A DNA stretch of 64,000 nucleotides from Methanohalophilus sp. (GTDB lineage Archaea; Halobacteriota; Methanosarcinia; Methanosarcinales; Methanosarcinaceae): NCBI RefSeq assembly GCF_030156785.1, contig NZ_JASGLW010000001.1, positions 124,001 through 188,000 of the forward strand, written 5' to 3'. A program made the position numbers and the translations under genes. Positions 3,030 to 49,393 of the stretch are shown piece by piece. The notes under the pieces were generated by a model, which saw nothing but the letters and a program-made list of their open reading frames with translations, had not been told where the DNA came from and searched no databases. How positions within the stretch are numbered: the stretch's first letter is position 1; the number at the start of each line of letters is the position of its first letter.

Positions 3030-4006
3030 CTGAAGATTTTGATCTGGGAATTGACCGAATAATCAATGAGATCAAAAACCGTAATGCTCGCAAAGTGGGG
3101 CTCCAATTTCCCGAAGGGCTTAAACGGAGGTCCTTTTCAATTGCTTCTGAGATTGAAAATAAAACCGGTGCTGAAGTGCAGATTTCAGCAAATCCCTGTT
3201 ATGGTGCATGTGACCTTGACAGACAGCTTCTTGAAACTATGGATCTTGTATTCCATTTTGGTCATTCCACAATCAGAGAGGATGACGGCGGGAAGGTAAT
3301 TTATATTGAAGCACGCTCACCTGTAGATCTTGGGGAAGTGGTTCGCAAAGCAATTCCACTGTTTGAAGGAATACGTATTGGCCTGATTACGACTGTACAG
3401 CATGTCCACAAACTGGAAGGTATACGCAGGCTGCTTGAAGAAGTAGGTAAGGAGGGAGTAATAGCGGAAGGGGATAGCAGGATTGCATATCCTGGACAGG
3501 TGTTGGGATGTAATTTTTCCGCTGCTTTTTCGGAGGACTGTGATGAGTACCTATATATCGGTGGGGGACAATTCCATCCAATTGGCGTGGCGCTTTGTAG
3601 CAAGAAGCCTGTAATTATTGCAGACCCCTATCTTAATGAAGTCAGAAAAGTGGACACCCATGCGATAATGAAAAAACGATATGCTGCAATCGGCAAAGCC
3701 ATGAATTCAAAGGTTGTGGCGATAGTTGTATCCACAAAAACCGGTCAGCAGCGGATGGAACTTGCAAAATATCTTCTGCGTAGTGCAAAGAAAAAGGGGT
3801 TGCAGGCCTATATTCTGACCATGGATCTTGTCTCCCCGGAGCAGCTGTTGAATTTTAAAGTGGATGTTATCGTCAATACGGCATGTCCGCGTATTGCAAT
3901 CGATGATGCCGGCAGATATCCTGCTCCGATGCTTACTCCGCCAGAATTCGAGATTGTACTTGGAGAGCGGGAAGAACTTGTTTTTGATGAGATAAGAGGT
4001 GAATGA
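3020..4006 (+). CDS. dph2: Diphthamide biosynthesis protein Dph2
   Basis: Catalyses the first step of diphthamide formation on elongation factor 2, moving the 3-amino-3-carboxypropyl group of S-adenosylmethionine to a histidine by non-canonical [4Fe-4S] radical chemistry. The three separated cluster cysteines are visible in [16 protein letters not shown] and NTACPRIA. Length is 328 residues. The start is TTG at 3020, preceded by GGAGG with 7-base spacing inside the end of hpt. It overlaps the reading frame of the next gene's leader. Stop is TGA. Confidence 0.92.
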
Positions 4007-4013
4007 AGCACTT

Positions 4014-4616
4014 ATGAAACAGCGCAAACTTGAGATGCGGCTGCAAAAAGTAGAAGGCTTTGAAAAACCTGATATCAGCCTTGAGCAATACCCGACACCT
4101 GCAACACTTGCAGCGGAGATCTTACATTTTGCTTACATGCAGGGTGATCTTGAAGGCACTGTTATTGATCTGGGCTGTGGGACTGGGATGCTGGCCATCG
4201 GTGCAAAATTGTTGGGAGCTAAAGAAGTCATTGGATATGATATTGATCCCAGACCTCTTATGATAGCACGCAGGAATGCAGAAAAACTGGGTGTTGAAGT
4301 TGAATTTGTCTGCTCTCCAATCGATTCCATCCAGTAGCATGCTGATACCGTTGTTATGAATCCTCCATTTGGAGCCCAATGCAAAGGAAACGACAGACCT
4401 TTTCTCAAAAAAGCCTTGGAAATTGCAGACACAGTCTATTCCATACATAATAAAGGTAGTCGGAGTTTCATCGAGAAGTATATAAGGCCTGCCATTGTAA
4501 CAGACACCTATTCTGCAAGTTTCTCGATAAAAAGAACATTTAAATTCCATAAAAAGGATGTAGAACAAATTGAAGTGGAAGTATACAGGATAAAGTCCGG
4601 TTCTCATTCAAACTAA
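4014..4616 (+). CDS. METTL5-like RNA/DNA adenine methyltransferase with in-frame TAG
   Basis: SAM-dependent methyltransferase of the METTL5-like group, whose eukaryotic members methylate adenine N6 in small-subunit rRNA. The start [16 protein letters not shown] is followed by EQYPTPA, motif [14 protein letters not shown] (about residues 52-64), the acidic YDIDP, and catalytic motif NPPFG (116-120). A TAG codon sits at residue 108 (4335-4337), between motif I and NPPFG. The frame continues without change to TAA at 4614 and the second half is clearly the same protein. Stopping at TAG would remove the catalytic motif. The likely explanation is decoding of TAG as pyrrolysine; a recent nonsense mutation is the alternative. 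ATG 4014 matches the family start; GTG 3999 is also in frame, with AGGTGA nearby. Confidence 0.85.
4335..4337 (+). other. In-frame TAG codon, candidate pyrrolysine site
   Basis: TAG in the middle of the METTL5-like methylase, read between CAG and CAT. The downstream frame is intact through the catalytic NPPF motif for 92 more codons. No ATG and ribosome site suited to restarting translation before NPPF is evident; the nearest downstream ATG (4356) immediately precedes the motif. Confidence 0.75.
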
Positions 4617-43286: not shown

Positions 43287-43649
43287 TTAGATTAAGGTTG
43301 CCAGCATCTATCCAGCTCCAGCTCCAATTAGGCAGAAGGTTATATTTGAAACTATATTTGTGAGAGAGAGATAAAATGAACCCTCTTCCATAAGGTGAAA
43401 TGACTCATAGGCAAAAGTGGAGAAGGTTGTGAATGAACCCAGTGTTCCAATGGTTATTGGGTAAATAATGTCAGTTTTGATTGTAGAATATACCAGAAAA
43501 GCAAGGACAAAGCTTCCAATTGTGTTTACGGTTAAGGTGCCCAAGGGCAGACCCCTAGTTGAAGGAACTGCTCCAGAAACTAGGAAACGAAGACAGGCCC
43601 CGATACTTCCACCAAATCCTACAAGCAGGATACTCACAAAAGTTACCAT
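43287..43649 (-). CDS. crcB: CrcB/Fluc fluoride channel, subunit 1, with TAG near the end
   Basis: Membrane fluoride exporter subunit with four helices. Motifs: GFGGSIGACLRFLVSG, NTIGSFVLAFLVY and GSFTTFSTFAYE, the fluoride path. The frame meets TAG at 43310-43308 after CLIGAGAG, but continues MLATLI to TAA at 43289-43287. Family members normally have a few more hydrophobic residues here, so the TAG may be decoded. ATG 43649 follows GAGGTGG; GTG 43661 is in frame. Paired with crcB 2 for a likely hetero-dimer. Confidence 0.88.
43308..43310 (-). other. In-frame TAG codon near the end of crcB
   Basis: TAG separated from a TAA by six codons (ATG CTG GCA ACC TTA ATC). It is the only place in the window where TAG could serve as a normal stop without obviously damaging the protein, yet the following residues fit the CrcB C-terminus. 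Confidence 0.55.
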
Positions 43650-43651
43650 TT

Positions 43652-44023
43652 TTACAACCACCTCTTTTTTTGGTAGAAAACTGTTCCTGCACGTGCGATA
43701 TATACAGCAAGTAGTGCGATTCCAACATTTCCTGCAACGTTTGCCATTGCCGACAAAGAACTCATTGTAACTGTCTGCATAATAAAAGTAGAAAATGTGG
43801 TGAAAGAACCCATGAATCCGATTCCAAGAAATAGTTTCAGGTTTGAGGATGAAGAACCTGCGTATTCAAAGTAATATATCAATAATCCAAGCAGGAAACT
43901 TCCTATCACATTCACAAAAAAAATGTCAATTGGACTATAAAGGCATGCGGAAACTATATAGCGGCTTACTGTACCCAGAAAGCCTCCTGAAGCAACATAA
44001 AAAACAGGAAGAGGAGTCTTCAA
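43652..44023 (-). CDS. crcB: CrcB/Fluc fluoride channel, subunit 2
   Basis: Second fluoride channel subunit, 123 residues and four helices: GGFLGTVSRYIVSA, VNVIGSFLLGLLIYYF and GSFTTFSTFIMQ. Two unlike crcB genes in tandem usually give a hetero-dimeric channel. It lies between moaD and crcB 1, whose ATG begins 3 bases after this gene's TAA. No fluoride riboswitch was seen upstream. Confidence 0.92.
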   Translation of the reverse strand: MKTPLPVFYVASGGFLGTVSRYIVSACLYSPIDIFFVNVIGSFLLGLLIYYFEYAGSSSSNLKLFLGIGFMGSFTTFSTFIMQTVTMSSLSAMANVAGNVGIALLAVYIARAGTVFYQKKRWL

Positions 44024-48365: not shown

Positions 48366-48501
48366 ATTAAATTAGCACTAAAAAATCCAAGACTTATCAA
48401 AAAAACATGGGTATATACAAGAAGGAATTATGTAACTGGTTCAGATATATACTCATTGGTATTTATAAAAGCAAGACCAAATCTACTAATGGAGATTTTT
48501 G

Positions 48502-48909
48502 ATGAGATTTGCGATGAAACTTTTTCTGGGAAATATGTTGATTATTGTATTAGTATTTGCGGGTTTGAGTATTTCCAGCTATTATACTTCTTCTACTGAA
48601 GAAGAATTTGATAGAGATTTATTTTTCAGTGAATGCTATTCTTCGAGTGATGAGTTGGTATTTATCTATAATCTTCGAACTTCAAATTATTCAGGTGATT
48701 ATTATGCAAGTTATAGCATAACGAAGGATAAGGATACGATAATAAATAAGAATAATAAATTATATGAGAATGTTTCTATCAATAATCCAATTGTAATAGA
48801 AATTCAAAGAGATGCTTCTTCAAAATATGAAATTTAGATCAAAATTAATGATTCATATGGGAATACAGCTCATGAAAGTCGCCTTGTAATTGGGCCACAG
48901 AACAAGTAA
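48502..48909 (+). CDS. Secreted or membrane-anchored protein with in-frame TAG
   Basis: Unknown exported protein. An N-terminal hydrophobic segment (MLIIVLVFAGLSISSYY) acts as signal or anchor, and the rest is a strand-rich domain. At 48835-48837 the frame meets TAG after DASSKYEI, but goes on IKINDSYGNTAHESRLVIGP to QNK and TAA at 48907. The downstream part continues the same beta-strand pattern, so it is coding. Length is about 135 residues with TAG as one residue. GGAG precedes ATG 48502 and a TATA-like TTTATAAAAG lies near 48463. Pyrrolysine decoding is the likely reading. Confidence 0.75.
48835..48837 (+). other. In-frame TAG codon, candidate pyrrolysine site
   Basis: TAG between ATT and ATC within the secreted protein gene. 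The 23 codons after it show normal codon use and a plausible beta-strand with NDSYGN turn before TAA. Confidence 0.7.
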
Positions 48910-49266: not shown

Positions 49267-49393
49267 TGAAAAGTGCCATTCAGCTTTGTTTAGAATGTTT
49301 TCTGAATTTCCAAACATCTGGTTTGATAGGTCGCTGAGTTGCTTTTTCCAGCTATCTTTATGTAATTTCAAATACTTCTAATTGCTAACTAAC

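Follow-up and report, generated by a model that had tools for sequence, protein, structure and literature searches.

A 64,000-nucleotide stretch of DNA (the window; G000:C9:124001-188000) from the 1.55-Mb draft genome of a methanogen (G000; 19 contigs) contains an ORF that starts with ATG at 48502, meets an in-frame TAG at 48835 and then remains open for 23 codons to a TAA, exactly as an initial annotation of this locus had described. The question that this arrangement raises is whether the TAG ends the protein or is translated and, if it is translated, which residue is inserted.

The TAG-bearing gene and its surroundings

The features of the locus, all on the + strand, are as follows, with the basis of each assignment in parentheses.

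48462..48469, +: TATA-box-like motif TTTATAAA, a possible promoter (consensus and position alone)
48491..48494, +: Shine-Dalgarno-like GGAG, with the ATG 7 bases on (motif position)
48502..48909, +: gene for a predicted 135-residue membrane-anchored beta-sandwich protein, with a single in-frame TAG (ORF, homologs, model)
48502..48561, +: N-terminal hydrophobic helix, residues 2-20, a likely membrane anchor or signal anchor (model helix, hydrophobic sequence)
48835..48837, +: in-frame TAG, codon 112, most likely pyrrolysine, with Glu or Asp opposite in 27 of 34 homologous ORFs (alignment; model strand 109-116)
48838..48906, +: read-through part of 23 residues, IKINDSYGNTAHESRLVIGPQNK, with the remainder of strand 109-116, the last strand 122-130 and the conserved D117, H124 and S126 (alignment, profile, model)
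48907..48909, +: terminating TAA (ORF reading)

The gene is flanked upstream by cofD and downstream by a topoisomerase-I-like ORF at 49382 (named by eye); in the sister species G005, an ABC-permease-like gene follows cofD instead (read by eye). The TAG-bearing gene is AT-rich (GC 29% vs. 41%). The Rfam scan at the TAG site found no family at the gathering threshold, and pyrrolysine insertion does not need a PYLIS element (PMC9499178).

Sequence and predicted structure of the continuation

According to the initial annotation, so clean a continuation after the TAG was unlikely to be chance. This argument had to be given up, as an open continuation of 23 codons has a chance of 0.18 under the local intergenic composition and 31% of the TAA/TGA-terminated genes of the genome also stay open for 23 codons or more past their stop. 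Given that openness is expected by chance in 18-31% of cases, it was discarded as evidence for read-through, and the argument for read-through rests on homology instead.

Unlike its openness, the sequence of the continuation exceeds chance. Against a profile of the downstream part of the homologs, which was built without the window sequence, the 23 residues scored highest, with 21.0 bits; 2000 shuffles of them reached 11.7 bits at best, and the genome's other gene continuations also scored lower. Only in frame does the codon usage of the continuation resemble that of coding sequence (0.187 per codon, vs. -0.085 and -0.332 in the other frames). The initial annotation had also proposed an alignment with homologs and had named homologs that end at the TAG site as the observation that would speak against read-through. 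Such an ending was found in none of the 34 distinct homologous ORFs, most of which come from other Methanosarcinaceae genera; all 34 run past the TAG site in register, with a sense codon at the site, and continue with the same domain. The residues opposite the TAG are E (17), D (10), K (2), R (2), N (1), G (1) and I (1), and D117, H124 and S126, all of which lie downstream of the TAG, are invariant in the first nine aligned sequences.

The nearest homolog, L002, is 46% identical, with 7 of 23 residues identical downstream of the TAG vs. 38 of 73 upstream, and the lower identity downstream would count mildly against read-through. None of the seven other genomes of the genus contains the gene; three of them match it just weakly and in part, over the hydrophobic N-terminus, and the same TAG is thus found in no close relative. 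Profile matches at E <= 0.01 occur in 40 of 112 genomes, a number that includes the genome itself and a few weak partial matches. The gene is patchily distributed and perhaps dispensable. A recent nonsense mutation, by which the gene would be a pseudogene in the making and would yield mainly an unfolded, truncated product of 111 residues, would agree with this drop in identity, with the AT-richness of the gene and with its absence from the rest of the genus, where no close relative shows continued selection. We nevertheless consider it improbable, as about 50% divergence from the nearest homolog has left the gene free of frameshifts, TAA and TGA, and its start signals are intact, as are D117, H124 and S126, which are invariant downstream of the TAG.

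The structure of the read-through protein was predicted by AlphaFold2 with the protein and four homologs from named records (L216-L219) as input. In the model, a disordered linker joins an N-terminal helix (residues 2-20) to a beta domain of seven strands; the mean pLDDT is 79, with values above 90 over most of the beta domain. Residue 112 is placed within strand 109-116 and the last strand spans residues 122-130; a stop at 111 would, by this model, cost the domain half a strand plus the whole last strand. The side chain of residue 112 probably faces outward on its strand, judging from the alternation of Y109, I111 and I115 and from the charged residues in the homologs. Scans against Pfam and NCBIfam found no family over cut-off for the protein, and in a PDB fold search the best E was 3.3e-3, with no match at or below 0.001. 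FN3/immunoglobulin-like domains are frequent among the top PDB matches, none of them significant, and we propose that the extracytoplasmic domain may be an immunoglobulin- or fibronectin-III-like beta-sandwich. Export is suggested by the N-terminal helix and by the longer homologs L007, L021 and L029, which look like lipoproteins with the same domain. Membrane-anchored and extracytoplasmic probably fits the protein better than the earlier description as secreted.

Pyrrolysine machinery and TAG usage in the genome

A tRNA-Pyl with the anticodon CUA is encoded at C9:36922-36993, and pylS, pylB, pylC and pylD follow pylT without interruption, which makes a complete pylTSBCD cluster. PylS, PylB and PylD score above the NCBIfam cut-offs, and the C-terminal part of PylC, the sole part scanned, matches TIGR03909, with the full ORF adjacent. 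The organism thus possesses the tRNA-Pyl (CUA), PylS, pylB, pylC and pylD that define a pyrrolysine-encoding organism. The genome also contains one aRF1 over cut-off and an mtmB-like gene with an internal TAG (named by eye).

The ORFs of the genome were called with a codon-usage score and a minimum length of 50 residues. TAG ends 46 of the 1435 predicted ORFs. In 27 of these 46 ORFs, the continuation is open for at least 23 codons, and the genes concerned, as named by eye, include those for an aconitase, an aminotransferase, a GMP-synthase-type amidotransferase, a phosphatidylserine-synthase-like protein and a corrinoid protein. The other 19 meet TAA or TGA within 22 codons (15 of them within 8), where termination and a short extension look alike. 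In the window, a CrcB-like membrane protein ORF at 43308-43661 (-) ends with TAG, with a TAA six codons on.

For comparison with the sister species, 723 genes with an open reading frame in 1.14 Mb of G005 were aligned to G000 with a coding filter. The raw counts of interior stops in G000 over the 723 aligned genes were 22 TAG, 5 TAA and 3 TGA. After inspection for artifacts, a judgement made with the list already seen, in which stops before the true start, in frameshifted stretches and in a non-coding ORF were discounted, about 20 TAG and one TGA (C10:50573) remained. For 20 TAG among 21 stops, the binomial P is about 4e-9 under equal thirds. In the reverse direction, the interior stops of G005 were 8 TAG, 5 TAA and 7 TGA, the majority of them apparent artifacts. 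The G005 codons opposite the G000 TAGs encode K (5), Q (3), E (3), L (2), Y (2), S (2) and others, with an artifact at C11:16744 included, and this variety means that many sites tolerate TAG. With about 20 TAG vs. a single other among the interior stops of G000, many ordinary genes tolerate TAG as a sense codon. The view that ordinary proteins use TAG as a sense codon, which had been put forward from the window locus, is therefore supported by the G005 comparison and the complete pylTSBCD cluster. The same counts bear on the nonsense mutation discussed above, given that the interior stops of this genome are nearly all TAG and decay would yield all three kinds. Two other approaches were abandoned. 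A G005 comparison with all ORFs, in which antisense ORFs swamped the signal, was replaced by the coding-filtered version, and a coding-potential scan of all stops without homology was uninformative, as same-frame neighboring genes dominate the TAA/TGA counts.

Some genes of this organism, such as pylB, may still end at TAG. Its pylB (G000:C9:38311-39363) ends at TAG, and read-through would lengthen the protein by 39 residues, in a frame whose codon usage is non-coding; pylB genes ending in TAG have been reported for M. mazei, M. acetivorans and M. burtonii (PMC2933860). UAG can also terminate in pyl-bearing archaea (PMC2933860), which would be in line with the window TAG being a real stop, with a functional protein of 111 residues and a continuation that is a relic. 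This explanation is very unlikely, as in the model the cut would fall within a strand and cost the domain its last one, and none of the 34 homologous ORFs has the shorter form.

In-frame TAGs were also observed in other genes. A small methyltransferase-like gene of the window, at 3999-4616 (+), contains one at 4335-4337, where G005 has AAG (Lys) with 91% identity across the site. Another lies at G000:C10:30310 in an aconitase-like housekeeping gene, opposite TAT (Tyr) in G005. At G000:C9:205514-205996 and on, the gene for an MtaC-like corrinoid protein has an in-frame TAG with a coding-like continuation of 93 codons, and at G000:C9:212114 a hydantoinase/oxoprolinase-like gene has an in-frame TAG after 90 codons, which is followed by 551 open codons.

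Probable pyrrolysine at residue 112

The explanation that we regard as highly probable is that the 135-residue anchored protein is completed via tRNA-Pyl, which inserts pyrrolysine at residue 112, a formerly acidic, neutrally acquired site at the surface. An ancestral Glu/Asp codon would have changed to TAG, for instance by a single change from GAG, in an organism that makes pyrrolysine and tRNA-Pyl (CUA) and in which UAG hardly serves as a stop. The ribosome would insert pyrrolysine at the UAG in competition with aRF1, and the domain would be completed; on the exposed face of the strand, pyrrolysine 112 would be tolerated, not selected for. As few ORFs stop at TAG and many genes tolerate it, we expect that the full-length protein is made, with pyrrolysine as residue 112. 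Given that a foreign UAG reporter in M. acetivorans was read through at just 20-30% (PMC2933860), a truncated form may coexist with it. Neutral acquisition, rather than a function of pyrrolysine, is favored by three points: relatives have an acidic residue at the site, the TAG is unique, and the tRNA-His guanylyltransferase (Thg1) of M. acetivorans provides a precedent (PMC2933860). That pyrrolysine is used and not just tolerated, with its reactive imine, exposed at the cell surface, making a covalent or ligand contact impossible for Glu or Asp, is less probable even than a real stop. Least probable of all is a sequencing or assembly error, for which a one-base difference such as GAG to TAG in a draft of 19 contigs would be enough, yet errors should produce TAA and TGA too, and about 20 of the 21 genuine interior stops are TAG.

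Neutral acquisition of pyrrolysine is described for Thg1 (Heinemann et al., 2009, via PMC2933860). Thg1 is, like the window gene, an ordinary gene with a species-specific in-frame TAG and a normal residue in relatives, and its TAG is translated as pyrrolysine, which is dispensable for activity (PMC2933860). Thg1 is, however, a cytoplasmic enzyme in which the residue was physically observed (PMC2933860), whereas the window protein is probably extracytoplasmic and its residue is predicted. The methylamine methyltransferases MtmB, MtbB and MttB share with the window gene a TAG read as pyrrolysine via pylTSBCD, but these enzymes keep their TAG from species to species and use pyrrolysine in catalysis (PMC2933860), whereas in the window gene the TAG is found in one genome and would replace Glu/Asp. 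Amber-containing genes of methanogens have been predicted by read-through similarity (PMC1242214, PMC3639795), and the evidence is of the same kind, namely homology past an in-frame UAG with varied residues opposite. These surveys covered other genomes, and the family of the window gene is not mentioned in the accessible text. Pyrrolysine is already known outside the methylamine methyltransferases, from Thg1 (PMC2933860). The window gene is thus a new example of a known phenomenon, and the mechanism is not new.

Like archaea with a 'Pyl code', this genome has TAG depleted as a stop and placed inside ordinary proteins. In that code, which Kivenson et al. are said to have described in Science in 2025, every TAG codon reportedly means pyrrolysine; in contrast to such archaea, in which all TAG would be sense, some genes here, pylB for one, may still terminate at TAG. 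What the window gene adds is a residue at the outer side of the membrane that is probably pyrrolysine. With the roughly 20 further cases in ordinary genes, it means that many proteins of this genome are cut short when annotated with the standard code, and the TAG sites, together with the codons that face them in the sister species, allow a direct test of whether TAG drifts neutrally into coding positions.
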